Assembly (NCBI GenBank): GCA_030272585.1
Contig: BSYQ01000014.1
Coordinates: 1,798,001 to 1,862,000 of the forward strand
Direction: 5' to 3'
Source of the DNA: Bryopsis sp. KO-2023
Lineage: Eukaryota; Chlorophyta; Ulvophyceae; Bryopsidales; Bryopsidaceae
Length of the DNA: 64,000 bases
Shown here: in pieces, positions 1-53,896 of the stretch
Position numbering within the stretch: position 1 is the first letter of the stretch
Layout: every line of letters starts with the position of its first letter
Translations under genes and position numbers: made by a program
Notes under the pieces: model-generated
Told to the model about the DNA's origin: nothing
The model's input: only the letters and a program-made list of their open reading frames with translations
Databases searched by the model: none

Positions 1-132
1 ACTAAGCCAAGCGGAACGCGTTAGAATCTTGGGTGTTGCAATCATATGCCTTAATCTTTTAGCAATTCCGTAAAATTAAAATTAAACAGTGTTACAAAAT
101 AACTTAACATCGGTGAAGTATCGTGGCTTAGG

Positions 133-197
133 GTGCTCCACCGATAAGGTGAATAACCTTAGGCGGTGTGGTCGAGGGTTCGATTCCCCCAGAGCAC
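133..197 (+). other. tRNA-like fold A (acceptor and T arm, no D arm)
   Basis: GTGCTC at 133-138 pairs with GAGCAC at 192-197. Just inside the 3' strand is a T-loop-like GGGTTCGATTCCCC, which also matches a Pol III B box. The centre folds into one long hairpin (CACCG...CGGTG around TAAGG-TGAATAA-CCTTA). There is no ordinary D arm, and the base before the central loop triplet is G, not U. This is not a normal tRNA gene; it may be a decayed or tRNA-mimicking segment inside the transposon. Confidence 0.4.
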
Positions 198-260
198 AAT
201 TTGTGTGTGTGCTGAGTGTTTGTGACTTATCCCATAAGTTATAACGCTAAAGGGGATTAG

Positions 261-360
261 GGAGCGTTTAGATTGAAAGATATCGTGTTCGCCTGGTCCG
301 CGTTGTTAGAATGCATGACTGCAGCTTAGTTGGTGGTGGGTTCGAGTCCCCTTACGCTCT
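261..360 (+). other. tRNA-like fold B (A and B boxes close together)
   Basis: GGAGCGT at 261-267 can pair with ACGCTCT at 354-360 (one G-U pair). A B-box/T-loop sequence GGGTTCGAGTCCCC lies just before the 3' strand, and an A-box-like GCTTAGTTGG only about ten bases upstream of it. No anticodon arm can be assigned. Same architecture as fold A but a different sequence. Confidence 0.35.
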
Positions 361-583
361 GAACTCTGTGGGTTCACTTTTTTATCCTTTTTTTCTTTGT
401 TATTTTCCTGCTGTAGCCTGACCCGGCACAACAGCCAATATACCCCGCACAGGGCTTCGTTTACCCCGCACAGAGGACTCCTAGCCCACAAACACATTTG
501 ACTACTTTTCCAGCTTGACCCCGCACAGGGACCATAGTACCCCGCACAGGGATGCTTTCACGCCGCACAGAGTATCCTCTCAC

Positions 584-1085
584 CTGTTCTCCTTGTAGGC
601 TCGGCAACCCTTCTGACACATCAGGTAAGTCTGCTTCTTCAGGTGGCGCACCTTCATCATCCCCTTGAACGATGCGAAAGTCGTCGGTAAGGAGTTGGGC
701 TTCGGAAGTACCGCGGCCATCAACCTCAGCAGGGTCTCGAATGTCTCCCGTGTCATCCCCGATTGGACTTTCAAATGCCAAAGGACCAACATCACCTGAA
801 ACAGAAGGTTAGAAGGGTTAGAAGAGCAATGAGAAGGGAAAAAGGTAAAATGACTTCTGTGCGGGGTTTCTGGTTGCCTGTGAAGGGGTCCCAGGTTATC
901 TGTGCGGGGCTGTCAATCAACCCCGCACAGAAGTCACAATGCGTCGCACACGTACCTGGACCAGGGACATGCTGCATGTGGCGTACAGGGGCTGCCTGAG
1001 GGCGGCGTTTCCCTGTACGTCAAACTCCTCCTCCTCGTCCTCCTCCTCCTCTTCCTCCTCCTCCTCCTCCTCTTCCTCCTCCTCC

Positions 1086-1120
<35 letters not shown>

Positions 1121-1595
1121 CTCTTCATCCCCCTCCTCAACATGTTCATCAGCAAAATCATCAGGAATGTCATCAGCAAAGCCGTCTTCGAAAAGAGGCG
1201 CATCCCCATCCTGTGCGTGCACCACGGATGGTCCTGCGGGGTCCACCGCAATCTGTACGGGCACCACGGATGTTCCTGTGGGGTCCACCGTGTTCTGTGC
1301 GGGGTCCACCTGGTTCTGTGCCGGGTCTGTGCCGCCGTCACGCGCTGTCGGGACACCGCACGCGCGTCAGGTGTGGAAAGGAAGCGAAAAAAACATATTT
1401 CCAAGGTTATGACTTACCTGCAGCGATCTCGAGCAGCTCCCTTTCAAGGCGATCCTTGTTCGGGCAAGTTCCACCGTCGCGCTTATGTCTCTTCCAGGAA
1501 GTGTCGCTGCCGATTCGCTGTCCACATGCTGGGCAGCAGGGGTCTTCACTTTGCAGGTGTCTCTTCAAGGCGTTGTAGCTCACGGGGTTGGGCAT
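584..1595 (-). CDS. Tnp2-like CACTA transposase, N-terminal exons
   Basis: Three exons join in phase: 1595-1418, 1344-956 and 795-584; the gene continues left of the window. Residues 1-60 contain a C2H2-like cluster (CPACGQRIG, then two His and a Cys in KRHKRDGGTC). Exon 2 has a DPAQN-rich repeat followed by an acidic stretch ending in about 30 consecutive Glu. Exon 3 encodes LVLWHLKVQSGMTRETF, then LLRLMAAVLPKPNSLP and CQKGCRAYKE. Known: that pattern is the hallmark of the Tnp2 (EnSpm/CACTA) transposase N-terminal region, which ends in a CPNDC-type motif. The DDE catalytic core is not in view, so activity cannot be judged; no internal stop is seen in these exons. Donors are GTAAGT, GTACGT and GTGAGA. 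The next exon is not recognisable in 1-583, so the following intron is at least 583 bases. Confidence 0.8.
1022..1135 (-). repeat. Coding CTC/TCC trinucleotide tract (poly-Glu)
   Basis: A run of about 38 triplets, mostly CTC and TTC on the plus strand, encodes consecutive Glu residues in exon 2 of the transposase gene. The tract is imperfect, with TTC interruptions, so it is likely to be length-variable but is still read as Glu throughout. Confidence 0.85.
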
Positions 1596-1851
1596 CTTTA
1601 ACGCTAACGGCAAGGAAACAACAGGTGAGACGGAATGGGACAGAAACTAAAGCAGCCCACATTACGCAAGTCACACTAATTAGTTTATAAATAATGTAAC
1701 CCACCCCTGGCGCTTCATGCGGGGCAATCGAGCTCGAGAACCCTGGTGAACTCGGTGTGTGCGGCCTACCTTTCTATCGTTTTGCAAAAATGATTGTTTT
1801 CTTTCTTGTGCTTACCCTTAACGAGATCGGAGCACTTGAGGAAGTGCTTAA

Positions 1852-4528
1852 CAAAATGACTGGCGACAACGAGGGCAGGGAGCGCGAGATCCTCGAGGAG
1901 TACGGCGAACTGAGGCCTTTTACGGCGTCGGCTCTTATTGCGGTGAGGAAAAAATCTGGTTCCACGAAGACGACTGTTATTCGCAAAGGCGGCTCGGTTT
2001 AACAACTTGTGATCTGTGTGGTAAACGTTTTACGCTGTGCGGGGTACAGGGTTTTTGTGCGGTGTGTCCATATCTCCGTGCGGGCTTCACGGATTGTTGT
2101 GCGGGGGTACAGGGAATTCCTTCTCGATTTGTGCGGGGCCACAGGGACCGTGTGCGGGGTTGTCTCTAAATTCTATGTTGTCTTTTTGTTCAGACTTTCA
2201 CAGGCAGAAAAATACACTTCTGGTCGACGAAGACGATAAACAAGCCCATATTCAACGTCATCGACGAAGCCCTCGTTTCCACCATCCAAAATATGGAGAG
2301 CTACCTGCACGTGGTGGAATCCATTGGCTATGCAGTGATAGAGCCCATCGATATGGTGAGTGTGTGCGGGGTGGATGTTCTCATCTGCGGTGCTGTTGTG
2401 CTTCTGTGCGGTGTTGCGTGTTTCATGTTTTTTGTGTCTCTGTGCGGGGTTGAAACACTGTGGTGCGGGGTGGTAACGCCTTTGTGCGGTGTACAGGCTG
2501 TGGTCGAGGCGGCGAAGGAGATGCTCGTCGCTATGGCGACTCCCACGCCTGCTCGTTTGCCATCTATCAAGAGTACCCAGGCAGAGAGCATCACGGGCAG
2601 ACTCGACACGAGGCTCATAGTGAAGGTGGTGAAGGACGGGAAAACCAGGCGCCGCTACAAGAACGAAAAAGAGTTTGGGTGGCTAAACAAGGTAAGGCAA
2701 GTCCTATGCAGGGTCCTCAAGGTCAGGTGCGGTGCACAAAATTATATGCACCCCTTCCTCGAATGTTTTGCTAAGTAACGTCTGTGCGGGGCTCCACGCC
2801 CTTCGTGCGGTGGTACTGGTTGGTTAATTAACTTTTTTCCTCATGTGTGTTTGTATAACAGCTGATCAACCAATACTGGGCTCAGGAAATCGTTCCGACG
2901 CTCCGCAACCCGATGAGGATGCTCGCGTCAAGGCAAAATATGCCTGACGGGATAACGGTGAGTAAAAAACAGAGAACTATGTGCTGTGCGGGGTTGCAGT
3001 ACGTGTGTGCGGGGCGCTGTTGTGTGTGTGCGGGGGGTTGTTGTGTGTGTGTGCGGTGTTTGGGTGTTGGGGAGGGGGTAATGTTAGTGTGTGCGGGGTT
3101 ACTCATTGTGTGTGCGTGGTGGGCAGGTCGGAGGAAATGTGGTCTCGCCAACCACTCGCCCGCGCCTTATCGATATGATGGGGGCGGCTATCTTCAGAAT
3201 CCTCTTCCACGCCCAGAATCAAGAAGGCGTGGTTGGGGGCCGCATGGGATTCGTCATCGGGTACCGCACGCTCTGCCAACGAGTGGTCGACAGGTAACCA
3301 CCCATTTCCTGTTCTGTGCGGGGTTTAGTAGCGTTTGTGCGGGGCTGTTGGGTGTCGTCTGTGTGCGGGGTGTTGTGTGTGTGCGGGGTTCGTGTGTGTG
3401 TGTGCGGGTCTTAACGTTGTTTGTGCGGGGTTGTAGGGTACAGACAGCAGGCGAAATATCAAGCAGCACAAAAAGCGAATCGACGCCCTGGAGACTGAAA
3501 ACGCCACCCGCACCGAGAAAATACAGGACACCGTCCACCTGCGCGCCACCCTCGTCCCGAACGACGAGTGGTACACGACCGAGGTAGCGTGGGTGGACGA
3601 GGTGAAGGCGATGAAGCGGAGGTTCGCGGAGACGGGGACGCTGCTCCATGATTCCGTGGTGAGTGCAGAACTTGATGTGCGTGTCTCAAATGTCTCTGTG
3701 CGGGGGTGGGTTGTTTCTGTGCGTGGCTGTTATGAACTTGTCTGTGCGGGCCTCGATTGTGTCTGTGCGTGTTTGGTTAGGTGTTGCTGTTTCGGTCTCT
3801 GTGCGGGGTGGTAGGTCTTCTGTGCGGGGTTTATCATACTTCGTGCGCTAACTGATTTCTCGTGTGCACGCAGGTGCGTCAGCCACCACCCGAGGAGGAG
3901 ACCCCGGAGGAGATCGCCCGTGGGAAGCAGCCAAGGGAGCCCACCATTCCCCGTGTACTGCAGCCGCCTCCACTGGATCCAGGTGAGGGATTGATTGGTT
4001 GTCGACACATGTTTTTTCCTGTTTCGTGCGGGGTCGGAGGACTTCTGTGCGTGGTTCAAAAAAGTCAGTGTTTGTAACCATTTTGTTGATGTTCTGGTGT
4101 GCGGGGTTTCTATGTGTGTGTGCGGGGCTAAAACTAGTGTGTGCGGCTTAGGAGAGGTATCCGGAAGTCATGACACCGGTGGTCCCTCCGGTGCCTCCGG
4201 TACCTCCGGCGGCCCTTTCTCCGAGAGCGCGGAGGCAGCGCTTCACGGTCTTCCAGCACCAGTTCTGGAGGATGCGGTCACAGAGTGCGGCGCTGGTGAC
4301 GATCACGACAGCCCCGCACAGGACATTGGCGACGATGCCGAGCCCGACTACGAGTCAAGTGCGGGGGAGGATGAACCGCCCAAAAAAAAGAGGGACAGGG
4401 ATCGGTTGTACGATAGTGGGAAGAAGTCCATCAGGCAGAAGGCTCTGGAAAAGGCCGAGAAAACGCGGAGGTCCAAGAAGGCGAAGGAGGATTCACCAAA
4501 AAAACGCAGGTCGTCGCGCAAGAAGTAA
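1852..4528 (+). CDS. Second gene of the CACTA element, zinc-motif and basic-tail protein
   Basis: Function not recognised. Exons 2204-2355, 2497-2691, 2862-2957, 3127-3293, 3448-3658, 3874-3982 and 4152-4528 join in consistent phase. An upstream exon ending near 1990 supplies a cysteine pair that, spliced at 2204, reads TTCDLCGRKIHFW. The middle is mostly helical with many charged residues, then comes a Pro/Glu stretch (PPPEEETPEE) and a final exon that is Ser/Gly-rich, acidic, then strongly Lys/Arg-rich (KRRSSRKK end), as in a nuclear DNA-binding protein. The start is unclear: before 1990 two frames are open, one encoding a Glu-rich helix (EGREREILEEYGELR) and the other the zinc-motif segment, so a missed intron or a frame shift is possible. 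By position it could be the element's TnpA-like repeat-binding protein; that is inference. Every intron is built largely of the CTGTGCGGGGT motif. Confidence 0.6.
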
Positions 4529-5345
4529 ACGGCGGTGCGGGGTTTACGCGCCTGTGTGCGGGGCTGTTGTTTTGTGGCCGAGGAGGAACGTTCGCCGTCC
4601 CCAAAACGTCGCTCGTTCCGAAAAAATAGGTCTGTGCGGGGTGTATGGGTTTTTGTGCGTGGCTGTTGAGATTTCTGTGCGGTGGTGGTTGTTTTCCTGT
4701 TCTTTTTTGTGTGGCTTTTTGGTTCGACATGTCAAGATTAGCCGAAGTTGATCGATTTGGATGAACGTCAAGGTTTTTTTGAGCTTCGGGGACTGGGTTT
4801 TCTTGTTTGGTATTGTTATGAATGCGTATCGTGCGGAGTCGGAACGCCGCACACAGCCCTCTGCGGCCTTTTTTGATTCCGACTAACGTGCGTGCTCTCA
4901 TAGTTTTTTCTGATGATATTGTGGGTTATTAAACCTTGCGGGTTTCGATGAACGGATGAGTTGCTTGGGATTCGGAGACTGGGGCACAACTGTGTGTGTG
5001 TTTTTTTGAATGAATTTCCCCCAAAACCCCGAAAACTGCCCGAAAGAGCAAGTGAAAGAGTCAAAAGATCTTCCTTCTTTTCTTCGCGGTGTTTGTGCGG
5101 GGCATGTGGCTGTGTGGGCGGGGGTTGTGGACTTCTGTGCGGGGTACATTGTGTGGATGGTGTTTGGGCTATTAAACCTTGTGGGTTTGGATGAACAGAT
5201 GGGTTGCTTGGGATTCGGGGACTGTGGGCACTTGTGTGTGTTTTTGTTTTAAGAAAATTCCCTCGTTTTACGGTCACCCCGCACAGGTCTCTGTGCGGCG
5301 TTGATCTCCTGTGCGGTGTTTCTAACCCCGCACAGACATCTGTGC

Positions 5346-5387
5346 GGGGTCGCGAATTCCAGTCGCTGACGACTTTTTCGCGACCCC
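5346..5387. repeat. Nested palindrome in the subterminal region
   Basis: GGGGTCGCGA (5346-5355) is perfectly inverted as TCGCGACCCC (5378-5387). Inside the loop AGTCG (5361) pairs with CGACT (5370). The outer arm overlaps a GTGCGGGG motif copy. A strong cruciform or RNA hairpin is possible. Confidence 0.7.
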
Positions 5388-5402
5388 GGTTGTAAGGGGA
5401 TT

Positions 5403-5443
5403 GGAACGCCTGGGAGTCGAACCCAGGTACATCCGACCGTTCC
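5403..5443 (-). other. tRNA minihelix-like fold C
   Basis: On the minus strand GGAACG and CGTTCC pair across a perfect six-pair T arm, CCTGGG-TTCGACT-CCCAGG, with only ten bases between the 5' acceptor strand and the T arm. It looks like an acceptor-plus-T minihelix lacking D and anticodon arms. It sits in the right subterminal region of the CACTA element, while folds A and B sit toward the other side. Confidence 0.45.
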
Positions 5444-5520
5444 TGATACGTTTCTGTTCTGTTTCGGGTCTTAATTCGTCAGTTCGACGTTCTTCGATAT
5501 TTGGCGGAGATTCGACCAAC

Positions 5521-5548
5521 CCCGCACAGAGCGGGTTTTCCCATAGTG
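5521..5548 (-). repeat. CACTA right terminal inverted repeat
   Basis: On the minus strand the sequence starts CACTATGGGAAAACCCGC and runs directly into a CTGTGCGGGG motif. The five-base CACTA start is the defining end of this superfamily. The matching left end is outside the window, so the full terminal-repeat length cannot be measured. Confidence 0.8.
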
Positions 5549-5584
5549 CTTCCTCCGATGCTCCATCGTGGGGCTAACTCCACT

Positions 5585-5620
<36 letters not shown>

Positions 5621-20923: not shown

Positions 20924-22153
20924 TGTGGATTCGAGCGTTAAATTCAAAACCCAAAGCAACGATCCTTCTCTCGTCGTCCTCCGCGTCCAAACCTCCTTGA
21001 CCAGTGCTGCTTTCCTGGATGGACACGAACAAGGTCGCTGGGCTTGGCATTTAACCTCCGTGCTGGCCCCGTTGGTGGGTTGCAATTCTTGATTGAGGTG
21101 ACACCGTTTGGGGTGTCTGACGTGCATGTACATGCACATGTGCAGCGGAGTAGATCATGACATAACACCTATTCGGGAAGGAAATTCGACTGGTGGGTGT
21201 AGAGAGCCCCCTCATTGGTGAGAGAGTGAATGAGTACGAAACTACTAAGTAGTTGAGACCTTGTGTTGCCACTTTTTCGACCTGGAACTTCGCAGGCGGA
21301 AAAAAGTTTGCCCGACAACGTGGAGGATTAGTAAAGCCGAATTGATGTCAAGAACGGCCAGGTGCGTTAGAAGTGCTAATAACACAAACGCAGAGTTCTC
21401 AACTTGAGCTCGGTCGAGGAGCCGTCACCATAGAGGCCGCTTCCGCAAGAGTGGGACGCCACTATCCAGCTTGAGAAAAAAAAGCCAAAACACAAGGAAC
21501 ACTGCGACAGGATGATGTCGCAGCGGAGAGCTGTGCACGGAAATAGAAAAAAGTGTGGAACAGTTTTGTCGGACGTCGCCATATTTCTACTCTCCTCAGT
21601 GATATTCGTCGCGCTACGCTGTGAAGTTGCTGGTGAGCCTTGGTTAGTCTGTTTATTGGGTTGTTCTGACACGAAGTACCGATAAGACGATCACGGTGGG
21701 GAACAAATATCGCGAGAAACACCTCTCCTCCTCACGGACAACTGATCCGGTTTCTGGACCTTTTGAGCGAAATACTTTCGTCGACTTGGATGCGAGCCAG
21801 CCAGATTCCAGTTCTATTCGACACGTTTCCCGTTCCGGCCTTCTGGCAAGGAGGTTCCCGTTGGCGGCACTAAAAGTGTGAAAGTCATAACAATTTTCGC
21901 TGTGCTCGTCATGACATCTGACGCTATGTCGTACTCGCGAAAATCACACAAAATCGACACGTGCGGTGAAAGCCGAGGAAACCAGCCTCTGGCGGCGTGC
22001 ATATGTGTGCAGGGGAACTCTAGCACATGTAAAACACACCTAGGATGTTTTTTATTGACCTGGTGAACTTCATGTAAGCATCCGGTGGCTTTTCGGGCTA
22101 ATCGAATCCTGACGGTGACATCTGATCCAGAGTAACGCATGGCATTGTTTCAG
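20924..22153. other. Spacer between expansin and PMP-repeat gene, with a possible first exon
   Basis: Divergent 5' regions. The plus-strand frame near 21.9 kb (VKVITIFAVLVMTSDAMS, then a Cys-containing stretch) could be the signal peptide exon of the gene downstream, but no upstream ATG in that frame was found and the internal ATG at 21911 gives only a weak signal. Nothing else is supported. Confidence 0.4.
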
Positions 22154-25100
22154 GTGCCCAGAAATGTGAAGCCATTTTTGAAGGGGGTGACTTCTCAGTC
22201 ACTCGAGCAGTATTGGACGAAGTCAAAGATGATTTTCAGAAGCTCCTGGACTGTGTGCCCAAAAGGGGAAAACTTTCAATCGAACCTGAACTGAACATCA
22301 AACCCACCAGCACGGTGGTGGTGAAAAATGCCATCGAAGTGACATCCAGTGGGAAGGGGGGAAAGCGTCCAGTGTTTAATTGTCCTGATGTGGGGCAGCC
22401 ACTTTTTGAAATCAGGTGCTGCTGAATTCCTCAGACTCTCACTCTCCTCCTGTAACTGAAAAAGCGCCCCTTTCTGGAAAAAATGGACATTGGATTTATT
22501 TTGACGTTTGGCTCAATACTTATACATTTCTTGGCAGCGATTGATTGATTGGTATTGGCATATTGAAGTGACTGCCACAGCAGTTGCTTGGGATGTTGAT
22601 CGATGTAATTAATGATTGATTGATTGATTGATGTTGGTAAATCTGTCATTTTTTAGGCACTTTGCTGACCTGGGTTCAAATCCTGATTAAGTCGTTTGTG
22701 GATTTGTGCTGTTCCAGCTCTACTGGAGTGGAGCTGAAGAACCTCGTTGTGTCAGATTGCATGACTGACTCTAATGTCACATCGGCCATCGTGGTCGACA
22801 TTGAAAAAGACAAGAACTCCAAAACCACATCCTTGGAGATCACTGGAGTGGATTTCGTCAATAACACCAACCTGAATGGAACGGCCAGCATTTTCATTAA
22901 GTCTGCCGGATCCTTGTCATTGGCCAAAGTTGTTTTTTCTCGAAATGCGGGGTTAGAGACTGGGGGGTTGTATTTGCATTCGGCAGGCATGGAGGTGAAT
23001 GTTAAGGATTGCGTGTTTGAGGAGAACCGAGCAAAGTTTTTTGGCGAACGAACTGAGGGGCAGGGGGCAGTCCTGTTTCAAGATGTTCCAGCATTTATTA
23101 CAGTGACTGGGTCGAGGTTCTTGAATAATTTTGCGGAGAAGGAGGGAGGAGCCATGTACATTAAGGTGAGTGCTTCCAGGGGTGGTATTGTGTGTGGGGG
23201 TTATTTTTTTTTATTTTTTGGATTTGTTTTTTCAGCACCATCTAACCCGCAACTAAAATTGACTGAAGAAGACCGGAGGAGCATTCACAGAAACGATTAA
23301 AAGTGTTGATGAACATATTTTATCTTGAGCAAAATACGTGATAAATACGTCATATTCTTTTTTTTCTTTTTTGTTGATTTTCTTATTCACGAATATCATA
23401 ATCTCTTGAAGGCAAAAAAAATACCACCAAAAAAACACTTTTTTTTGTCTTTTTGCAGGGGGAGCCACCTGCAAGTGGATTGACCATAACGGACACCGAA
23501 TTTCACAACAACACAGCAGCGCAAGGATCGGGTGGGGTGTTATGGGCAAGCGGCCCCACATTCGAATTGACTGTGAAAAATTGCACATTCACGGAGAACA
23601 AGGCGAGGGCCTTTGGGGGGACCATCCATCTTCGGACATCCAGACGGTCCGGCGAAATTAAAGTAGAAATAGAGGATTCGGTTTTCGAGAAAAATATTGC
23701 GCTCGCTGGAGGGGCGCTATGGGCACTGGTAATCGATGTTTTCTTCCTCATATTTTCTTGGAATTCATTTTTATGCCCTACTCTTTTATACTTTTAAAGA
23801 AACACGAATTTTTTCTTGTGCCCATTTGGGAAGAAACACTTGATATCAGTTTTTAGAAAAATTCAGGTGGCTGAATGCCATGTCAGTGAAAAGGTATGCA
23901 TAGGGGACCTGTCTTTTTTTTTGTGCCAATAATGGATCACACTTTCATGAAATTGATGTGCAGCTTTGTCTATGAATTTTTTTTTTTCACTTCCATAGGG
24001 TTTGATTTTTTTTTTTTCTGCTTACCCCCCCCCCCCCCCCCCAAGAAAAAAAAAATTAAGAAACTTAAATTATCGTTTGAAAAGACATTCCTTGCCGAAG
24101 GACTTCCTATTATGAGCCCCACTGTCGGGGGAAAAAAAAATAATAATAAAAAACTGGAAAACAAAAATGGACGTAGGATTTTCTAGTGTTTACTTATTTT
24201 TTGGTTTGAAGGCAAATATTCAATGGAGAATGGGCATCTCAATTTCCAACAGTAAGTTTTTAAGGAACGAAGCCTTGTTGCAACACACCGGGCCAGGAGA
24301 AATTTTTGAACAGGCCATTAATCAATCCACTACCTCCGCCGGCACGGGGGGTGCCATAACATGCATTGGAGTCTCCGTCGACCTCAAATTCAAGGGAAAT
24401 CTGTTTGAAAAAAACACCGCCATCGGCCTGGGGGGCGTGGATCAAAGGGGATCCAAAGGAGGGGCGATTGCCATTACGGACTTACAAAACGTCACAATAA
24501 CGGACACCGTTTTCAGGGAAAACTCCGCCATAAATTTAGGCACATTGGGGCATGAGGCGGTGGGGGGTGCCATTTTCTTAGCGGTGAGCTCAGTTTCATA
24601 TATATATATATATATATGAAACTCCACAATGGATAAACCTACAGTTCTTTGCCCTTCATTGTTTTCAATTCTTTGGTGTTTTTTTCTTTGTTTCTTTTTT
24701 TTTGGGGGGGGGTACCATATACAATCATTAATTGCAAGATGTGACAGATTAAAAAACAAGAAAAAAGAAAAGAAGAAAAAAGTGTGAACGTGGAACAGGC
24801 ATCATGATGGATTTTCATGGGGATGTCCGATCCATTCTCAGACATGAATCATCGACGCTGAGGTTTTTTTTGTTTTTTTTTTGGGTTTAGGCGGGGGGGA
24901 TCAAAGCGGCCAGGGTTTCAGACACCCCACGGGGGAGCAAATGCGAACTCCAGTGCGACTCCAGCAGCACCACCATATTGCGTACAACTATAAATGTTGT
25001 GGCCGGGTGCGGAGCTTTGGACGGCAATGGTAGGAGAATATGCGTGCTGGCTAATCAAACCGAGTGTGAGGGGGTCATTCCTGAAGAGAATTTGGTCGGG

Positions 25101-28100
25101 CTCGGGGAAGAAGAATTGGCAGCCACCTGCAAGGTGGGGTGGATCGCTCAGGGGCGATACCAAGAGTGGTTCAGAAAAAAGAAAAAACAAAAAGGGGGCA
25201 GGGGTGTGGAGAAATTGAAATTCTTTAAGTTTGTGGAGGAAAGAGAATTCGAAAAAAAAAATCCTACTGGGCAGCCAGAAAAACCCAATGAGCATCATCA
25301 GGGTAACTGCATTGGGCTGTTTTCAACAAATAATAACAGTAATCTTATGCTTTTCAAGAAATTCCTGCACTGTTGAGCATCAGGAATTGAAAGGGTTTCA
25401 GTTCAAGATAGTTGAAGCCTCAGCGCCGCCCCCCCCCCCTCGCCCCCAAAAAGGATGGTGTTTATTTTTTCACTTCTATTTTCATAAAAAACAAAACAAA
25501 AACAATCACGACCTCAAAATGTACATTTCCTCTTTTCTGCCTTCGAAAACATCATTCAAGCAATCTCTTAATTTTTTAATTTCTTTTTGACCTTTATTTT
25601 TTGGCCACTCTTTTCACTGCAGATCATTGTGATCGAGTCAGACGTGGGGCTTTCAGACACCAAGTTCCTGGACAATACTGTGGATGGCGCCGGAGGAGCC
25701 ATTTTTGTCACAGAGGAGGGAGCCACCCTGAGGTTGGGGAAAGGGGTGGATTTCCTGAGAAACACAGCCAAAAATTCGTCAGGGGGGGCCTTGTTTCTAC
25801 AGGATGGACCAACCCTATTCGCAGAAGATGTAATACTCAAAGACAATGTTGCAGGGATCAGCGGTGGAGGTATTGCCCTGGAGGTAAAAAAGAAGGATCA
25901 ATATGGGTTGAGTCGTTCATTTGTTTATATATATATGAATGGATGAATGTTTAATTTACAACAGGCAAACTTCCCCAACGAAGGCTGTCCACAACGAGGT
26001 GATTTAGCCCAAGCCCTTGAGAAGAATCCAGCTGAAAAGAGGCAGTTCTAGAAACCCCTCCACTGTTGCATCTAAGATAAATTTAACCTAGTAGAAAATC
26101 CTTCATGATATATATATATATATATACACATACGCAGTGAATTGAATTGATATTATTTTTACACTAGGCCAAAAGGCCGAGTGCAGTTTGTTATATGATG
26201 ACTCAGAAGTAAACCATCGTTTCACCCCAATTGTTCATGTGTATCCCTCTACCCCAATATTTGCATCCAACCAAATATAGTATGAGAAAAAATAAAATAA
26301 ATCAAAACGTATATATATATGTGTGTGTACTTGCTTCTTTTTTTCAGCCCCCCCCCAAAAAAAAATAAACAATATAAAATATGCACATACCTTAACTCAG
26401 TAGTGGCAAATTTGAAGGAGAGGCGGGGTTTTGATTCTGTTGCAGGGTTCTTCTGCTAATTTGATTCTCCGAGGTGGATCCTTTATTGGTAACAAGGCCA
26501 AGCGCGGAAATGGCGGGGTCATCTCATCGTTGAGCACTGAATCCAACATCACCATAACTGGACCGAGGCTTTTCCGCCGAAATCAAGCTGAAGAAGAAGG
26601 TGCATATATAACAAAACATTGAAAAAATCAGAACATGTATATGATAATCTATGGTGTAGTATAATAATATTAATAATAGATTGGGGCTTCCCCCCATTGA
26701 CCCTGAAAGCAGAAGGACAGCAAAACTAGTGAGGTGAAACAAAAATTCAGCTTGCTTTGGGAGAACCCAGTGATAATGAAATGATCAGCATTTAGATGGT
26801 GGTGAAACTCCTTATGTAGTTTGCTTCTTTTTTTTTTCATTGGGGGGCTTTTGTTTTCTTTCACAGGGGGTGTACTTGCATGTTTGAGCGAGGATTCAAC
26901 CATCACTTTCACAGACGCCAATTTTTCCAACAACCAAGCGGCGGTGGCCGGGGGAGCAATTCACGCTAAGGTTACCTCAGTCATACTTTTTTTTCTTCGC
27001 CGATATCAGTGAAATAGTGATTGAAAGATAATATGGCCAATGTGTGCATTTTATCCCTTGATAACTCTTTGATCATATGGGGCAAACCCAAAAAAAACGC
27101 TTTTTTTTTGTTTTACTGTGCAGTCTGCGAGGGGAAATGTAACCGTCGACCTGGTAGGTGTTTCGTTTTCCAAAAACCGCATAAAGCCGACCCCTGATTT
27201 GCCACTGCTGGGAAAGGGGGGGGCGATTTCCCTGGAGGGTGCTGCCATTACATTATCCATATCAGGGGAAGCCAACACATTTTCCAAAAACTCAGCCAGA
27301 GAGGGGGGCGCCATCCGACTGTTCGACACCGACAAAGCTGATATTTCTCGAGCATCTTTTACGGAGAATGTGGCGTTGAGCGGCGGAGGGCTTCATGCCT
27401 CTTTCACCAGAAAGTCTGACAGCCTGGCTGTCAGTCTGACCAAGGTGGATTTCATAGGGAACAAGGGGTACATGGGAGGGGGGGTCATGGCCGATGCCAG
27501 AAGTGCAAATTTATCCTTCGTGCCGGATGCTGATGGACTGACCAAGGCGGTGTTTTTGCCATCGACGACTTTTTCACCTACCGCACAGATTTCCTTCAAT
27601 GGGGTGCGGTTCAAGGAGCAGCAGATTGTGAAAGACGGCGGGGGTATGTTCTTGATCGATATTCATGCCGTCGGGGAAAACTGTGATTTCCAGGATAACA
27701 GGGCTGCAGAGGGGTTCCATGGTGGAGGAGGGGCAGTGAAATTGTCTGATTCTGCCAGGTTTGATCTGACCTCAGGGACCTTCACCGGAAATCGAGCCGT
27801 TGATGGTGGGGCAGTATTTGTTTCAAACTCACTTTTCAATGGGAGGGATCTGGAGTTCAGCAAGAACACTGCCTTTGGAAATGGTGGCTTGGATTCGGAT
27901 GAAGACTCCCCACAGAAGGATCAAGTTTTAGTCAAGGCCAGTGAGGCTGGGGAAAACTGTGAGGTGGGAGGGTTTGGTGGTGGAGGCGGTGCCGTGAAAC
28001 TGGTGGATTCTGCCAGGTTCAATCTGACCTCAGGAGACTTCAACGAAAATCAAGCGGTCGATGGAGGGGCGCTGTTCGTTTCGAACTCGATTTTCACGGG

Positions 28101-31100
28101 GAAGAATCTGGAGCTGAGCAAGAACTCTGCCCTCAACAAGGGTGGATCCATAGCCACCGTAGACTCCGCCCAAGGGGGCAGGAGTGCGGTGACCCTGGAA
28201 GAAAGCAAAATCGACAGAAACGTTGCTAAACTGGGTGGAGGCATCTTTAGCGATGTGGTGGAGCCCAAAGGGACAAAAGGATGTCCCGCCACGCAAGCTG
28301 TGAGGCGAACGCTCGACCTGGACTCTGTTCAGGAGGTGGTGATGAACGCAGGCGAAAGCCGCAAGAAATCCCCCCTGGCATCGACCATGTCCCTCCTGTT
28401 AAAAAGCACTGTTATCTCCAACAACGAAGCCAAGGATACTGGGGGTGGGATTTTCACCGCAAACCCATCTCTGGTGTGTGCCTGTTGTGAATCCAAGTGC
28501 TCCACCTCATGCGCATTGATCGACCTGACATCGGATGATAAGCTGGAGAGAGTCTGTGCTGAATCTTGGGTGGGAAACGCACATGGCACGGGATATGGCC
28601 CGATGCTAGCATCGTTTGAAGATAGAGTGGAAGTTATCAAACTGGATGGCCGCCTACTGGAGGAGAACGAGGTTTTGGACGATTCTCACAGCAGTGGGAA
28701 ACCACTGGTGTCCTTGAAAGCGCTGATGAAGGATTATTTCGATCAGGTGGTCACTCTCCAGCGGCCCAATGTGTTTGCACAGGTCAAAGAGTCGGAATCC
28801 ACCGGGAATCAAATCCTGTTCGATGAGGTGGCCAGCCAAGTGAAGGAAGGCGTCGCAGATTTCAATGCTACGGTTCTCAGTGCCCCTCCTGGCGATTATC
28901 AACTAAAGATGAGTTTTCCAGGGCTGAAGGTGGGGGATATACGGTTCAGCGTGAGGGTCAGGGAGTGCGTTCGCGGGGAAAACCCTGTGGAAGGAGATAT
29001 TGCCTTCAGTTGCCGTCAGTGCGAATCTGACAATTTCAGTTTCAGGCCGGGTCAAAATTGCACAGGATGTCCGCCATCTACCACCTGTGGTACTGGGACT
29101 CTGACACCTGTTGATGGCTTTTGGCATTCTTCGTCCTGGTCGGAGGCCATTCACAAATGTCTGGTGGATGTTGCATGCTCCTACACCAACCGCTCTATTA
29201 TTTTGGGGATGGAGTCGGAGCAATCGGGGGCAGAACCTCTCCACTTCAGAGATCATTCGCTTTGTCGAACGGTAAACAATCCAGCGGACCTTCCATGGGG
29301 TTTACAGGGAAATCTAGCTGTGTGCATTTCATCTATCAATAGAATAGGTGTCTTGATAAGCTAATGGACGAAAAAGACCCACTGCGAATATAACTCCCTT
29401 GATTCAGGATTTTCCATGCATGGTTTTCAAATTTGTTATATTTTCAACGCAAATGAGCCAAAAAGGACCCCTGCGCCAGAATCCTAATGATCATAGTTGA
29501 GAGTTCCATACGCACGCTTTTCTCTAATCTCCTTCTGCAAGTGTTGATATGAGAAACATTTTTACTCTGGTTTGAGAAGCGTCTTGAGGAGAGGGGTGGG
29601 GGACGTGTTCAAACTGCAGGGTTATGAAGGCCCCCTTTGTGGGAGCTGTGCCAGCGGCTATGGTCGAGTGAGGGCGTTCGAGTGCCAAGAATGCTTGTCA
29701 AAACTTAAAACGATTTTCTTAATGACAGCGATGGTATTTTGGATGGTCATTATCGTCGGCTTCATCATCCGAAACGCCCTCAAAGCAGGCACACCAGTAA
29801 AAGCTCGTGCCAATTCTGAAAGGGAGGGGGGAAATCTGGAAAATTCCCCAGCCATATACCTGGGAGTGAACCCTGCCACCGAGAATGCAAAGGTGAAATG
29901 ATTCCCAACAGTTAATTCACGGATTAAGGTGGCGAAGCACGACCTCTATGGGGTCATTGTTTGTAGATACAAACTTGCGTAGTAAAACCTCTATGGGGTT
30001 CTGTGCTTTGTTTGGTCTAAATTATGGGTTTTTTTTGCCTGACTGAAAAAGAGTGGTGTTGGGCGTTTGCCATTCGGAAGAGGTTGGATTTTGTCTGATT
30101 GGGTGTGTGTGTGCTGGTTTGGTGATGCTGTAGATTCTCATCAATTTCGTTCAAGTTACCAGCATTGCTCTTGTCATCAACGTCGAATGGCGAGAGGAAG
30201 TGCGGCAGGTCCTACAAATAGAGGGTGAGTGCGTGTGTTGCAGAAAAAAAACATATCCTATCTTTGCTCTTTCATGTCTGGACTGGTCGACTCCTCCATG
30301 GCTTCGATCATTTCCATTGGGGTGTGTATACGCCCACGAAAAAGACAGCCATCAGGATATTCTATCTACCGCTCGGAACACCGACTTTGACGAATGCATG
30401 TCTCAAACATCCACAGATCTCGCCTCGGGTTTCTCCACCAACGAAAGCATTATTTCCTTCGATTGCTCCCTGGCGGAGTCTGGCGTGCCTGTGTCCATTC
30501 GTCGCACCATCATGGCGATGCTCCTGCCGTTTGCCATGATGCTGTTTCCGATTTCCATTGCTCTCAGAAGTTACTTCGACAAAGCCAGGTCGCGGACGTT
30601 CAATCGCCGAGCGTTGGTTTCTTTTCTGGTGGTGGCTTATGTCTTCTACACCGGGACAACGAGGCGTGCGTTGAGAATTTTGCATGGGGTGTCCCTCGAT
30701 TCTGGGGACTCCAAAAGCGTGTATGCGTTCGCTAAAGGGAGGTTCTGGGCGGACGACACCAGCGTTGGGTACTTCGAAGGCGGCCATACGTATTTGGTGC
30801 TGTTTCTGGGGCTCCCTGTTCTGTTGTTTTACTCCATTGGCTTTCCGACGTACCTCTTCTACGTTCTGCGGGGAAACAAGGAAAAACTGAATGATGAGAG
30901 TTTCGCAAGAAGCTATGGGTTTCTATACCGGGCCTACAGCAACAAATTCGTTTACTGGGAGATCATCGTCATGGCAAGGAAGGCACTCTTGGTCGGAGTC
31001 GTGGTGTTCGCCTATGAGCTGGGGGGCAACCTCCAGTCGGTGCTCGCGGTGGCAGTGCTGATGGTGGCGTTGATTTTGCACCTGAATTCTCAGCCCTACA

Positions 31101-31480
31101 GGGAGGAGCTTTCCCAGATGAACCAGAGAGAGACTTGGTCTCTTTACGTTTCCGTTTTCACGTACCTGGCGGGAATCGCCTTCGGCGACGATCGACTGCC
31201 CGTGTGGTTTGAGGTCCTCCTCTCAGTCTTGCTGGTCGGTGCAACGAGCGCTCTAGTCATTTATTTGGTGTGTGCGTTGGCGACGGAAAGCGCACGCCAC
31301 TTGGAAACGCTACTGGAGGAGAGGGAAGTGGTCGTTCCGGAGAACGCAACCACCTGGCTGAAGATGCGGCTGCTTGTAAACTACTATTGGGTCCGGACGA
31401 TGGACTGTTTTTGGCATTTCACGGAGCAGGGCATCGCCTGGAGCAAAGCCAAGATGTCCCAACCAACACCTCGTGTGTAA
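22154..31480 (+). CDS. Large PMP-repeat beta-helix protein with C-terminal multi-pass membrane region
   Basis: Twelve exons were traced: 22154-22415, 22718-23165, 23459-23728, 24212-24583, 24891-25133, 25623-25883, 26446-26599, 26867-26970, 27124-29271, 29620-29892, 30134-30224 and about 30356-31480, giving roughly 1900 residues; the 5' exon is uncertain. The ectodomain is a long run of polymorphic-membrane-protein repeats: FxxN followed by GGA[IL], such as FTENVALSGGGLH and FEKNTAIGLGG, with serine/asparagine ladders expected of a parallel beta-helix. A Cys-rich stalk follows (CRQCESDNFSF, CTGCPPSTTCG, GYEGPLCGSCASGYG, FECQEC). The C-terminal 500 residues carry about ten hydrophobic segments (e.g. 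FLMTAMVFWMVIIVGFII, LVLFLGLPVLLFYSIGFP) and a charged cytosolic tail. Known: similar PMP/Cys-rich/multi-TM proteins in algae and other protists are TRP-channel-like. A surface sensor or channel is inference. Confidence 0.8.
24598..24617. repeat. (TA)n microsatellite
   Basis: A perfect TA run in a PMP-gene intron; similar short runs occur at 25927-25936 and 26108-26126. Confidence 0.85.
27673..28220 (+). repeat. Internal 276-base tandem duplication in the PMP gene
   Basis: GGGGAAAACTGTGA at 27673 recurs at 27949. The 92-residue units share GENC, GGGGAVKL, DSARF-LTSG, AVDGGA and FVSNS blocks with moderate divergence. The unit keeps frame and corresponds to about two beta-helix repeat pairs, showing that the ectodomain grows by local duplication. 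Confidence 0.85.
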
Positions 31481-34400
31481 ACGAACCTGGAAAACACAAT
31501 GAATGGCGTGGGATAGGCGGGGGGGGGGGGGGGAGGGTGTATGCAAATCTTGGAATAGTTTTGTGCTTTGCTTACCTTGGTTGTCATTTTCATTTGCTAT
31601 TTTGTTCTTCCTGTTGTCTTGTTGATATACTCTGATGCGGAAGCTGGAGGGAAGCTGAATAAATCAGAGGCGGCATGTTGCTGCATGACCGGTTTTGCCA
31701 ATGGCTGACGCACAGGCGGAGGACACAGTGGATAAAAGGGTTAGTTTGGCAAATGGGATTTGTTTAAGGTTGTTTAAGGTTTTGGGTTGCAGCAGCATTT
31801 TTTAGGATGCATACTACGGAGTCGTGGTTCCGCGACTGAGGTGTGAAAAAACCAATAGATGACAATTTTGGGGTGTTGGGTGTAAAAAGTGTAACAATCA
31901 AATGCCAATTTTAAAGGAGTTGATGAGTTAGCGTTAAAGTGCCAAGCGTATCGTCCCCAAGCGTGCGTTGATTTTCCTTGTTGCACGCTCTTCTCAATCA
32001 ATCATAATAATTATAAAACAGCGAAAGGAGGCCACCACCTGTCAGAAAAAAAAAACACAAACATATTTCAGACAAAAAGGAAAAAAGGAAAAAAGGAAAA
32101 GCATCCATACTTACCATACCTGCACGCCTTTCCCACGCCCCCACCAAGAACCCCGTTGATTTTGTCTTAAACGATTTCCCTTGACCTATAAACAACCCGT
32201 TGGGAATTGAATAACAGGAAAAGACAAACTAGATTTTAGCAGTCACTCAATCGAAGGTGTCAACATTGACAATTGCAACAAAGTATGAGTGGCCCTTTTT
32301 CCCGTGTTTGAACCTTAAATTTAAGGTGAGGAATAATCAGTTGCATGTCGATTAGGGCCAAATGTGTATGTTGATGGAGCCAGTTCCACAAGTCTTACCC
32401 AGTGCTGAAGAACCCCACCCTGAGCCTGCTAATAGAACTGCTGTGGGGTTTGTTTTCCATTGTTGTGATGTTTCTCCCAGTATTTTTTCCTGTTTCGGGT
32501 GTGCATAAAAGCGATATGCAACAGACTGGGTCAAGAATTGTCGCGTGTGAAATTTGAGGGAGGAAAATTGAGCGTCTTTTGTCAACTTACGAGTTTGATG
32601 GACAAGGAATTTGTCATGCTTTGTAAGGGAGTTGGAACAGGAGATGGAATAAAAAGGAGGTTGAACCACCTGTTTGATTGTGAATAGACTTTGCATGTGT
32701 TTCGCCACCCGCCAATACCTAGCTTCAGGAAACAGCAGGCACTTTGAAAATGAAATGTAGGTCGCACAGCATAATTCATATTCCAAAAACAGCTTCGCAC
32801 TTTGACAAAATAATTTCTTCAAAACTGGAAACTTGAAATCCTTCCGTTCTACGACGGTAAAATTCTTTTTTGCAACACAGGAAAAACTAATTTCCAGTTT
32901 TTTTTAATTAGTTTATTATTATTTTTAATAGTTTTGTTCTACTATTTTTTTATTAATTTTTTTTCACGAGCCCGCTTTTCTTGCATTTCCCAACATCAGG
33001 TTTGGACTGCTGCGGTAATTGAGGAACGTGGGTTTCCGTGGAAAAAACACAAAAGCTGCCATGTCTCACTCGTTTTGAAACCAACAAACGATCATCGAAT
33101 TCGATTATCGTTTCCCCACCTGTATCGCTGAAACGTTCGGCAGAATTCTTGTGTTTCCCCACTACAATTTCAACGGTGGCAAGTTAAGTCGGCGCACGTC
33201 ACAGGTCATAGCCTCTTGTGCTAAATTTTTGTGAACGTCGCGAACGACGAGCAAGCTCCTAATTAAAAGAGTGAACTTTCGGTACGGATCCGCGCCGGGA
33301 CCAACGAAACGCAACGAAACGCGCGTCAAGGTGCAAGGGTAATCCTAGTTCCACGGTGTAATCACATTGTCTCGCATTTCCATAGAACTGAGCGCACAGC
33401 CCACAGGAGATGTTCGTCATGGCTGTCACAGCATTTGCACTCAAATAGGATTACAACAACATGCACTTGCACTCGCGGCATTGGAGACGCGCTGTACCTC
33501 ATATACTCACAAATATGTACTTGGATTTGTGGCAATGCATGGTGGTACAGTCTCCTGGACACAAGCATAATAGTGTGCTATGTTCCTTCAGGTTCAGCTC
33601 CAAGAGTTGAGGGTCAACCCTGGCCAGAGGAATTGTTACCTCCAAACGCAAGCGCATTCCCGAAACGATTCTGCATATTTTTCCAAAACATATCATATCA
33701 GAAGAAGGAGATGTTGGCTTAGTAGTACATGCAATGGTTGACAAGAGACCCAAATGCAGGACAAATTCTGAACTTCGCCAATCCCCTGCAAAAGCCTATC
33801 AAAGACTGATTTGTTACTCGCCATTAGAAAAAAGCGCCCAAAACGACAAAGAGAGAAAATGAAAAAATGGTGTATATTTGCTTACGAGTTCTAAACAAAG
33901 TTGTGGTTTCAAAATTGGGTCCGACACTTGCAGACATCATTTCACAAGCTCTGTCTCGATTTCCTGACAAAGTGAATTCACACCATAGCTTTTCTAAAAA
34001 CCGTCCAGTGCCTGAATTCATTTTACATGCACTGGATTTTTGAAACCCACTCCCCCACCCACAAGCAAACATTGAGTGCAAAACTGAGGGGCTGTAGTAG
34101 GCGCGGTTGTATGTTGCCTAGCACAACAAATAATTCTTCAGTGTCAGTAACATCTTAGTTGCAACTAAAATTGTGGTGGCAGTTGCAATCGGTTGCACCC
34201 CTCTCTGACCTGTAACCATGGCTAACCGACGGAATATATAGTCCTCAGGACGCTGAGAAACCCAGGCTAGGGTCGCTCGGATATAGTTTCCTATATTCGA
34301 GCTAACAGTCTTTTGGAGTTCTCGAATGGGGCGCTTCGCGATCGGGCTTGTCTGTGCGGTAAGCATAGCAGCAGATTTTGTCTCCAGGAAGTCGGCTCAA

Positions 34401-35336
34401 GCACACAACCGAGTCTCAGTGAAAAAGATAACAAGGGTTTCCGAAAATTCCCCAGGTCGCGGCGGCTGGCGGACTGTGCTGGCTTTTCGTGAGGAGGAAA
34501 GGCACAGGACCTGGGGACGACGAGGTGCTGCAGCCGCCTCCTTTCGCTTCTGGCGGGAAGGAGAACGACCCAGGCGCGGGCGGAAGGGCAGAGACCACCT
34601 TCCATAGGTGAGCAGGTCCTGGGTGATAATGTCTGTTGATGTTTCACTTCTTGCTACTTTGAGCAAAGAGTGTTGGAGCAGTGTGGGATTTTGTTTTCGG
34701 AGCTATATTCGAATCGTTCGCAGGCCTGCAAGGAGGGAAGGAAACAGGACGCCTCTTGGCCTGCTGCGGCCTTAGATCGAGCGTGGTTTGGGAGGTGAGG
34801 TGAGGTACCCAAACAGTCGTCTTTGAATCACAGTGGGATGTTGAATCTATTGCAGCCTTCTGCTTTTCCCAACACACACTGATCCCATTTCTGCCTTTTA
34901 TTTCTTTTTTTTTCTATCTTTCTTATCTTGATGGAATCAAAGATCAGGGCCCGTTTTTGGTGCAATGTTGTTATTCTTTAAAGATAGGAAATTGAGACAG
35001 GAAATTGATCTCCCACACACACAGTCAGCCAATGAAAGACGCGCAGCCTCGTTTTGACGTTCAACCAAACACCTGACACACGACTTGGGTGCACAGGACA
35101 TGTGCACCGAATCCACTTTTTGTTCTTGGACCTCCGTGGTGGATGTGGCCATAGTTTCCGAAGCAAACGGGGAGCTTTCGAAGGGTTTGATCAGTCCAAG
35201 TCTCCACGCCAGACAATTGTCCTCCGCGCCAGCGTTTCATGTTTGCATGCCGTCGAAAGCTGCAACTTGTGCAGCAACAGCACTAAAGAATGGTGACGCT
35301 TTCCCAAAGCGTCATCTTGTTTTCGGACTGGCCCTC
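31481..35336. other. Spacer between the PMP and REJ genes
   Basis: No gene recognised. A G-run of about sixteen (31519-31534) follows the PMP stop. Near 34326 a short plus-strand frame MGRFAIGLVCAVSIAA with a GTAAGC donor at about 34358 could be a signal-peptide exon for the gene at 35.3 kb, and an overlapping minus-strand frame (about 34366-34200) also looks plausible; neither is convincing alone. Confidence 0.4.
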
Positions 35337-38300
35337 ATGCCAGTTCCGAGTCTTACGTTCTTTTTGCTCGTCGCTGTGTTTTTCGCAGGCCCCGACTGCC
35401 CAGAAAGCTGCCCTTTCGTCACGGTTCAGACCAAAGGCTGGGAAAAAAGCCAAGAAGAGGAAGAGGCGTGTTCAGATGCCGTTGTGGTGAGATACCGCCA
35501 ATCTCTGACTTCATGAACTAATAACACTGCAACACTTTCGTTTTCTGAGACCAGTTTTGATGACGTGCAGACCAACGGGTACTGCACCTGGTCATCCAGC
35601 AAGGAGGAATGCTCGTTCGTGGAAGGCGATTGCACATCTGTTGGGCAGAGCGAAGAAAAGCTCTTTACAAGCTGCCAGTCGAGCTCCTTCTGTGCGGATC
35701 TGGACGGTGCAATCGGGAACGATGTGTCCACACTGTGCGCCGACGATGGAGCGGGGCCAGGTACCTGGACGATTCCCAACCTCTGCTGTCGTCATGTTGC
35801 GGTTGTCCAATCTACATTTTGTTGATATTGTATGGCATCCAGGCCTGGACATGTGCGTCGACACCGGAGACAGGTCGAAGCGATGCGCGTTGTGCCAGCA
35901 ACGCGTCGCCGCCATGCAAGGGACCCTCCATCCCCGTGTCCAGTTTCAAAGCAATTGCGAGGGTACGGCGGAGGTGAACGATCAACACCGACGAGTGCTA
36001 CAGCCTGTAGCACTGAGGAGCGAGACCTCTGGACCTTTTACAGCAGACCCATCGTGCGTAGAGGTGGCCAATATTGTGCAAGCTCACAGGTATGATTCAT
36101 TAGGTGTTGAAATTCCTTCCTGTTCTCAACTAATTTATGACATTGTGGGAAACAAGTCCTGTTTCTCTCGCGTTCAGTACCGAGTCGTCGTTCGAGCTGC
36201 CACCCGCAACAGTTTCATCCTTGGCGCGGGGAGACTACCAGTTCCGTTTGGACGTCACAAGCCATTTGTCTGAGAGCTCCTTTTCGGACATCGTTTTCAC
36301 ACGAGCAGAAGTGGCAGTCCCCGTTGTGGGAATTTTTGGAGAGCAAGATAGGGATTTCGAGATCAGCAAGGGCTTCAAGATCAGTGCCTTCGTGGATAAG
36401 AGCTCTGTGTGCGACATCTACACGGTGGATTATCTTTGGATATCCACCGACGCTTCACCTTGGGGGGCGATACCGGAGGACGGGTACGCCAGAAAAAACC
36501 TGGTCGTGAAAGGCCCAGTTGATGCAGCGGCCGGACAGGATTATGGTCTCAGATTGGTGGCCTACCTCTTGGACTCGAGTGGGGGGGGCTCCAGGATCAA
36601 TCCTCGGTGGACGTGCAAATGACTGCCCTCGGATCCCCTCTCGTCGCAAAACTCGATGGCCCCACCGGAGACGTCGTGCTGAAGGAGGACATTTGTTTGG
36701 ATGCGTCGGGATCGTACGATCCTGATGATCCATCAGCGTTATCCGAGCTGTCTGCGACATGGAGGTGCGAGGTGGATGAGTTGGGAGGTGAAGCTTGCTT
36801 CACAGGAACAATGCAGCCCATCATCGAAGGGACGAGACTGTGCATTCCCAAAGAGGCGCTGGTGCCAGGGAGATGGCACTTCTACACTGTGAGCATATCG
36901 AGGACGGATTTGGAGCAGACCCGGTCAGCGTCAGCTGTAGTCCAATTCAGACCGCGACCGGAGGGCAGCTTGATCCCGACGGGAAGGGCTAAGCCGGTCT
37001 GTGGATCTATGGAGTGCCCAGCGACCTTGAACCCCAGCGAGGTCATCAATCTCACGGTGACAGTTGACGAGGAGCACAAGGATGGCACAAGCATTTCTTG
37101 GTGGTGCAGCGATTTACAAGATCTTGAGAACAATGTTGTGGGCAGGAATCTTGTCATAAGGCCAGGAGTGGTTCCAGGAGGTGCGGAAGTGGAATGCACA
37201 GCGACGTTGAGGAAGGACGGTGTGGAGGATACAGGGGAAGTGGTGGTGTCGTTCGCCACAAACAAGCCGCCCTATTGCGAACGTCATGACTGGTGATTGC
37301 TTCACCATTCACAATACAACGGAGTCCTCCCGCTACCCAGTCGTTTCTTTCCTTGCGAAAGCCAAAGGATTCGTTGACGACGATTCAGAAATTGTGTACG
37401 AGTTTGGAGAGACACTCGGAAGTTCTTTCGTTCTGTTCCAGCGTGGGCCTTCAACGACCTACGAGTTTAAGGGACTTGGCCAGGGAAATCATACACTTGT
37501 GGTGAGGGCCACAGATGCAGCCGGAGGAGTGGTGCAGCAAGAGGAAACGGTGTCGGTTCTGGAGCCCGAGGAGGACATCGTTTTGGGCGCAATTTTGAAC
37601 GAAGTGGTTCTTGGTGCAGATGAGGGCACTCGCTCTGGGGATCCAGTCATAGTGTTCCAAGAGTCCAGGAAGGGAGCGCAGCTATTGGAGCTTGCACAAG
37701 AAAAGGGCGCCATAACTGGCAGAAGCATCCATTGCTCAGATCCCCTCCGTGGAGGATATGGACCCGGACGAGTACATGATCGCACAAGGCGTCCTGGGCG
37801 AGCTGGCTCAAAGTGGCTGGACGGAAGCATCATTGGTGGAACAAATGCTGGACGCCGTCATCACCGGGTTGACTGCATCGGATTATGGAGCCAAGAAGTT
37901 CAAGGGAGAGAACTGCAAAGACGTGTTGAACATCGTCTCGTCTGGAGCATGAAAGCGGATCGCAGGAGATGACCCGAACGTTCAATCCACAGCCGTTTTT
38001 TACGATAAGCTGAAGACCGCTATATCCCTGTGCTCCACCTGGGAGGAAAGTCTATAACCATCCAAACATCACAAGACACCACAGGAAGAAAGTTGCAAGC
38101 CTCAGAAAAAAGAAACTGCATTCGGATTTCCCAACCAAGTGCGGGGAGTTTTGTCCAGTCGAAACTGTGGGGACCAACATTCAATACTTCGCTGATTCCT
38201 CCACCCTAGCAGACCTGGTGGGAGAAATATACTCGATCGGTGCAACCGATGTGAGGATCGTGTCCGGGATTCTGGAGGTCGGACTGATGGATCATGTGGG

Positions 38301-53864: not shown

Positions 53865-53896
<32 letters not shown>

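Follow-up and report, generated by a model that had tools for sequence, protein, structure and literature searches.

The stretch of DNA considered here (hereafter the window) is a 64-kb segment of contig BSYQ01000014.1 from the green alga Bryopsis sp. KO-2023 (positions 1,798,001 to 1,862,000 of the forward strand). Towards its left edge lies one copy of a CACTA-like element with two divergent genes, one read on the plus strand and lying wholly within the window, the other read on the minus strand and running out of it. An 11-mer, CTGTGCGGGGT, is packed into the introns and further noncoding parts of this element, and we argue below that it is probably recognised, as double-stranded DNA, by a protein that the element would itself encode. 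Motif counts refer to both strands of the window, at one or at two mismatches at most, and the material is this single element copy.

The plus-strand gene is modelled with eight exons from 1790 to 4528, which upon splicing give an unbroken frame of 489 amino acids with a GC content of 0.59 at first, 0.43 at second and 0.70 at third codon positions. The predicted start falls in exon 1 (1790-1942), which is followed by exons 2 to 7 (2194-2355, 2497-2691, 2862-2957, 3127-3293, 3448-3658 and 3874-3982); exon 8 (4152-4528) encodes a lysine-rich end and the stop codon, and holds one antisense motif copy at 4311. The seven introns are all of the GT-AG type and measure 141-251 bp; five of them would introduce an in-frame stop if retained; intron 2 would leave the reading frame uninterrupted, and intron 4, though free of in-frame stops, would shift it. 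Every one of the seven holds sense copies of the motif: six each in introns 1 (1943-2193), 4 (2958-3126) and 6 (3659-3873), five each in introns 2 (2356-2496) and 5 (3294-3447, with an acceptor possibly three bases further on), four in intron 7 (3983-4151) and two in intron 3 (2692-2861). Searches with the product found nothing credible among solved structures (best E-value 0.069), and its first 257 residues have no relative encoded in the viral contig collection, in a single-protein query that detects only close relatives.

Three exons of the minus-strand gene fall within the window (1595-1418, 1344-956 and 795-584), with GT donors, AG acceptors and an open frame. Exon 1 carries the ATG start and a zinc-finger-like C-x2-C...H...C stretch, for which the Pfam zinc-finger matches stay below their cut-offs. 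Intron 1 (1345-1417) has no motif copy. Exon 2 includes an acidic run, matched by unrelated Pfam families that all fall below their cut-offs, and a CTC repeat at 1025-1138 (38 units, 86% matches) codes for a long run of glutamates in this gene. Two antisense copies at 1295 and 1316 also lie in exon 2, together with decayed copies (three mismatches) at 1211, 1232 and 1253; as these five are set off by steps of 21 or 42 bp, they amount to a seven-codon repeat, and the protein has a seven-residue repeat of the DPAQNxV type. Intron 2 (796-955) holds two antisense copies (857 and 900, plus strand) and one sense copy (920, minus strand). Exon 3 has a TTTCAG acceptor and a GTGAGA donor; the latter, the last visible donor of the gene, opens a third intron leftward, whose acceptor was not seen; the later exons lie beyond the window. 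Six copies of the motif occur in this open intron between 421 and 570 (at 421, 442, 463, 518, 539 and 560), four of the five gaps being 21 bp. We take exon 3 to resemble the N-terminal region of a CACTA transposase, a resemblance that no Pfam match backs (none at an E-value of up to 10 for this region). A single-protein query with the same region, which picks up close relatives only, found no encoded relative in the viral or genome contig collections.

The right end of the element (5519-5548, minus strand) is marked by CACTATGGG, read on the minus strand at 5540-5548; a motif copy lies next to it at 5519-5529. The array of copies begins at 421, rather than at 461 as the sequence-only reading of this DNA had placed it. 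CACTATGGG is absent from the plus strand of the window; the left end is either outside it or lost. Inward of the right end is a nested palindrome (5276-5350) built from copies at 5276 (minus), 5291 (plus), 5309 (plus), 5325 (minus) and 5340 (plus), with a single-strand DNA fold z-score of -7.3. The right subterminal region has three plus and three minus copies, both orientations being present as that reading had noted, and shows here the bi-oriented subterminal repeats typical of CACTA elements. Between the palindrome and the plus-strand gene, the 3' noncoding region (4529-5275) contains six plus and one minus copies and a direct repeat of about 110 bp (4912-5020 and 5156-5262, 83% identical). 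Given that neither gene product has a Pfam match to a transposase, the CACTA label is based on a single end, on the subterminal repeats and on the likeness of exon 3 to CACTA transposases, and we treat the element as CACTA-like, its membership being incomplete. The left flank, where a 3-bp target-site duplication would be sought, is outside the window, and the minus-strand exons within it are N-terminal ones in which no catalytic DDE domain of the Transposase_21 type was seen.

We also observed tRNA-like units with a B box at 133-199 and 261-361 on the plus strand and at about 5405-5445 on the minus strand. All three matches to GGTTCGANTCC in the window are beside or inside the element, and the units have only weak RNA-family and tRNA scores. 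Rfam gave no match at gathering score over the whole window; over 1-5600 it gave two weak ones, Plastid-ycf2 (E-value 0.25) and tmRNA (E-value 0.48), both at T-arm-like hairpins. ARAGORN called no tRNA in the window at default settings, and the 160 calls at relaxed settings are mostly due to chance.

The motif is strongly concentrated in the element. At one mismatch or fewer it occurs 37 times (19 exact), against 0.71 in shuffles of the window; at two mismatches or fewer the first 6600 bases hold 59, every one of them inside 421-5529, and the remaining approximately 57 kb only seven, none of which has zero or one mismatch. Hence, the figure of about fifty copies given earlier holds if one or two mismatches are allowed, but not for exact copies. 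The plus-strand gene introns hold 34 copies at two mismatches or fewer, while 300 dinucleotide shuffles of the same introns yield a mean of 1.44 and a maximum of 6. In this gene the density is 26.8 per kb in introns and 0.7 per kb in exons, and in the minus-strand gene 12.9 per kb in the complete introns and 2.6 per kb in exons; the intergenic DNA of the element has no copy at this threshold. The motif is therefore dense in introns and other noncoding parts and, as far as the window shows, specific to the element, which is the pattern expected of targets of the VANC type (see below).

A second regularity, overlooked in the sequence-only reading, concerns spacing. Neighbouring copies on the same strand are exactly 21 bp apart in 20 of 46 cases, the next commonest distance being 42 bp (three cases); within segments, distances of 20-22 bp were observed 21 times, while random placement gives 3.1 on average and at most 11 in 2000 runs. 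The register of the array differs from intron to intron. Across the 34 plus-strand gene intron copies, columns 2-10 of the motif carry 1.48-2.00 bits, the first and last columns 0.46 and 0.87 bit and the preceding T 1.09 bits, all inflated because the copies were chosen by match. The unselected columns lying 21 bp downstream of the same copies carry 0.46-1.03 bit, and seven of the nine columns from +12 to +20 less than 0.2 bit. Pairs among the 20 spacers of the 21-bp steps agree at 3.0 of 10 bases, where composition predicts 2.6; for the five adjacent spacer pairs the figure is 3.4 of 10. The DNA helix has 10.5 bp per turn, so that 21 bases correspond to two turns. A fixed step of two turns suits a protein bound to DNA, and its combination with nearly random spacers points to a protein that reads double-stranded DNA rather than RNA. 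Together with the conserved core these features lead us to favour a protein-binding array, one of three options raised in the sequence-only reading; the copies inverted into the right-end palindrome and the copy adjoining the CACTA end lend it further support.

The spacing also bears on the possibility that the copies are neutral tandem repeats, that is, a 21-bp unit multiplied by slippage and short-range copying, tolerated in introns but not in exons and now without function. Several short period-21 arrays reported by Tandem Repeats Finder, the local duplication seen in the nearby 110-bp direct repeat and the slight excess in spacer agreement speak for such an origin, and runs of one orientation are what tandem copying would be expected to leave. 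However, the spacers differ almost like unrelated sequence even though the motif persists, and each intron has its own register; we therefore regard a purely neutral array as rather unlikely. Nevertheless, several of these observations count against the protein-binding array. Tandem duplication of a 21-bp unit, followed by retention of the motif, could by itself yield the spacing, and the spacers are slightly more alike than composition predicts. The 21-bp step applies to under half of the neighbours, and the 25 copies outside the plus-strand gene introns show only a weak signal in the columns 21 bp downstream (0.14-0.48 bit). Furthermore, neither the plus-strand nor the minus-strand product has a Pfam match above curated cut-off, and neither matches a transposase.

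We then consider the orientation of the copies, which the earlier reading had described as following transcription in both genes. At two mismatches or fewer, the plus-strand gene has 34 plus and no minus copies in its introns and one minus copy in its exons; the minus-strand gene has two plus copies in its exons, two plus and one minus in its complete introns, and six minus in the open third intron. Relative to transcription this amounts to 41 sense and two antisense copies in introns as opposed to none and three in exons (Fisher p = 0.0007, a value computed with the open third intron included, although its acceptor was not seen, and from array copies that are not independent). Counting by intron, the sense direction prevails in eight of the nine that bear copies (sign test p = 0.039), and in all seven of the plus-strand gene alone (p = 0.016). 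All three exonic copies are antisense; the minus-strand gene has two of them in one coding exon, and the plus-strand gene has the third. Thus, the rule is strong for the plus-strand gene, where 34 of 34 intronic copies are sense, and weak for the minus-strand gene, where it is borne out by the open third intron (6 of 6) but not by intron 2, with its two antisense copies and one sense copy, nor by intron 1, which has none.

Such a bias is what one would expect if the motif acted in RNA, with its sense GGGG serving as an intronic splicing enhancer packed in to secure splicing where pyrimidine tracts are weak. G-runs act as splicing enhancers. One study reports that intronic enhancers are enriched upstream of weak pyrimidine tracts (PMC2481429). 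The perfect sense orientation in the plus-strand gene favours an RNA-level signal, as do the presence of a motif-like copy 2-6 bases before the acceptor in three of its seven introns (one with three mismatches) and the G-runs of these introns outside the motif copies, where runs of at least three number 10 for G and three for C. A fourth point comes from the host DNA, in which noncoding G-runs track gene direction in blocks delimited post hoc. However, a G-run enhancer needs neither a 21-bp spacing nor the conserved TGTGC part beside the G-run, the copies continue past the stop codon of the plus-strand gene, and the right end has the motif in inverted pairs and the exons have it in antisense. 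An RNA signal may be a second role of the motif; on its own it would leave the spacing, the inverted copies of the right end and the antisense coding copies unexplained; as the whole explanation we consider it unlikely.

The host DNA suggests another source of the orientation. Across 22000-40000 and 49600-60000, long G- and C-runs in noncoding DNA change strand with gene direction, in blocks chosen post hoc. When the blocks are ended by open reading frames (ORFs), runs of at least five number 15 for G and eight for C in the plus block, and none and 20 in the minus block; for runs of at least four the corresponding figures are 39 and 26, and 15 and 39. In wider blocks with chosen ORFs masked, runs of at least five number 18 and eight in the plus block, and one and 34 in the minus block. 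A host intron on the minus strand (58801-59238) has three G-runs and one C-run of at least four. Host introns thus seem to retain sense-strand G-runs and to avoid C-runs there. With noncoding G-runs oriented along the genes in this way, the sense bias of the copies may belong to introns of this DNA in general and not to the motif.

A complementary possibility is that inverted copies may have been lost from introns since the inverted motif ends in CACAG and resembles a 3' splice site; flipping would add a CAG in 14 of the 34 plus-strand gene intron copies. Certain results tell against these explanations of the strand. The host blocks were picked after the run counts were known, and in the plus block alone the difference (18 to eight runs of at least five) is not significant (p = 0.076). 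With six-frame stop-to-stop stretches masked, few or no runs are left in most rows of the host test and there is no consistent asymmetry. YAG looks scarce in introns when the sense strand is set against the opposite one (17 versus 38), an argument that was dropped since the motif copies themselves produce the difference, the masked counts being 16 versus 20; with no shortage after masking, the idea of an inverted motif mimicking a 3' splice site is without independent support. We regard the sense orientation of the intronic copies as probably secondary.

The third option, that the introns were born from the repeat by insertion of motif-bearing units into genes in the manner of introners, draws on the presence of copies in all seven plus-strand gene introns; motif-like stretches (at most three mismatches, with one base added on each side) cover 15-58% of each of these. 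When the motif is masked, the mean pair score of these introns is 14.5 as against 13.0 in shuffles (standard deviation of shuffle means 0.40), a small but real excess that may reflect TG-rich composition, as the shuffle kept single bases only. The highest score of any masked pair is 20, below the 27 reached in shuffles; none of the pairs is conspicuous, and the intron ends are not alike. Moreover, minus-strand gene intron 1 is free of copies. The account consulted in part (PMC9860276) describes introner families as groups of sequences alike among themselves, many of them bearing target duplications or terminal inverted repeats. The present introns are like them in containing transposon-linked sequence; they differ in sharing little beyond the motif and in their ends, so that they do not look like one family, and no sequence common to the seven plus-strand gene introns over their length was found. 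An origin of the introns from the repeat is accordingly very improbable.

Certain look-alikes were encountered elsewhere. A viral contig (L001) matched by a two-copy motif pattern has six close repeats of CCCCGCACA between 85 and 170, each differing from the motif at no more than one base, beside an ORF read by eye as a phage-like primase/helicase; we took these as unrelated iteron-like repeats. The end pattern CACTATGGGAAAACCC matched three viral contigs, and, as the parts examined were without an exact TGTGCGGGGT, these matches were taken as chance. Among the other ORFs of the window, matches to Chlamydia-PMP repeats, REJ and a Tify-binding domain are above the Pfam cut-off and those to DPBB, TRP and RRM below it. 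The Chlamydia-PMP-type repeats (above cut-off) occur in plus-strand ORFs at 27118-31480, followed by the TRP-like match (below cut-off).

Comparison with known systems offers a possible function for the arrays. According to the parts of two accounts used here, VANC21 of Arabidopsis binds a 9-bp motif in the introns, intergenic DNA and terminal noncoding regions of VANDAL21, and this motif is arrayed in one orientation and is often part of tandem repeats (PMC5735166, PMC10398659). To the extent of these descriptions, the present case resembles that of the Mutator-like VANDAL21 in having a short motif dense in one element family, with a single orientation within arrays, often in tandem, and with sites in introns, intergenic and terminal noncoding DNA but scarce in coding DNA. 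It differs in the CACTA-like end and in the motif itself, the VANC21 motif YAGTATTAY being unrelated to the 11-mer; the 21-bp step and the link to the direction of transcription seen here find no mention in the relevant parts of the VANDAL21 accounts (PMC5735166, PMC10398659). The likeness is put forward as one of function and not of membership: the arrays may work like VANC targets.

The element itself recalls En/Spm. According to the part of a report drawn upon (PMC4158355), the usual CACTA element has a second gene besides that for the transposase. The excerpts used describe TnpA of En/Spm as recognising subterminal repeats and its action as correlating with demethylation (PMC2613891, PMC10398659). 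With the repeats of En/Spm and of the soybean Tgmt* element, as far as the consulted text covers them, the present motif shares its short length, its place at element ends and its inverted copies, and the DNA-binding proteins of such families have little sequence similarity to each other (PMC2613891). In those descriptions the repeats are subterminal, whereas here they are mostly intronic, and a TnpA-like role of the plus-strand product is only putative. The arrays resemble those of VANC21, on an element that resembles En/Spm. Among the open-licence literature matches listed, each seen in part, no CACTA element with phased intronic motif arrays was found, which is not proof of absence.

In the model that we favour, the putative binder would be one of two candidates, the 489-residue plus-strand product or the minus-strand product through its zinc-finger-like N-terminus. 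Its candidate sites cluster in noncoding parts of the element, namely introns, the 3' region and the subterminal regions, and are often exactly two turns apart, which would place neighbouring proteins on one face of the helix. The arrays would mark the whole element, and not its ends alone, for its own protein. The likeliest purpose of such marking would be to counter silencing or to switch the element on, in the manner of VANC on VANDAL21, and also to assemble the complex of the ends, a part ascribed to TnpA on En/Spm. In introns, the sense direction of the copies would then be secondary to this role, reflecting a preference of host introns for sense G-runs and perhaps the loss of inverted copies.

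More tentatively, and as a possibility that we hold to be the less probable outcome, a CACTA-like element might have independently evolved a VANDAL-like, element-wide self-recognition, with phased candidate arrays in every intron of its accessory gene and with their strand tuned for pre-mRNA splicing, such that the same sequence would be read as DNA by a transposon protein and as RNA by the splicing machinery. If the arrays are target sites, transposon marking through introns would have arisen at least twice, in the Mutator-like VANDALs and in a CACTA-like element. If true, this would also show how such sites can coexist with splicing, the spacing, which serves the reading of DNA, being separable from the orientation, which reflects tolerance in RNA, within one and the same sequence.

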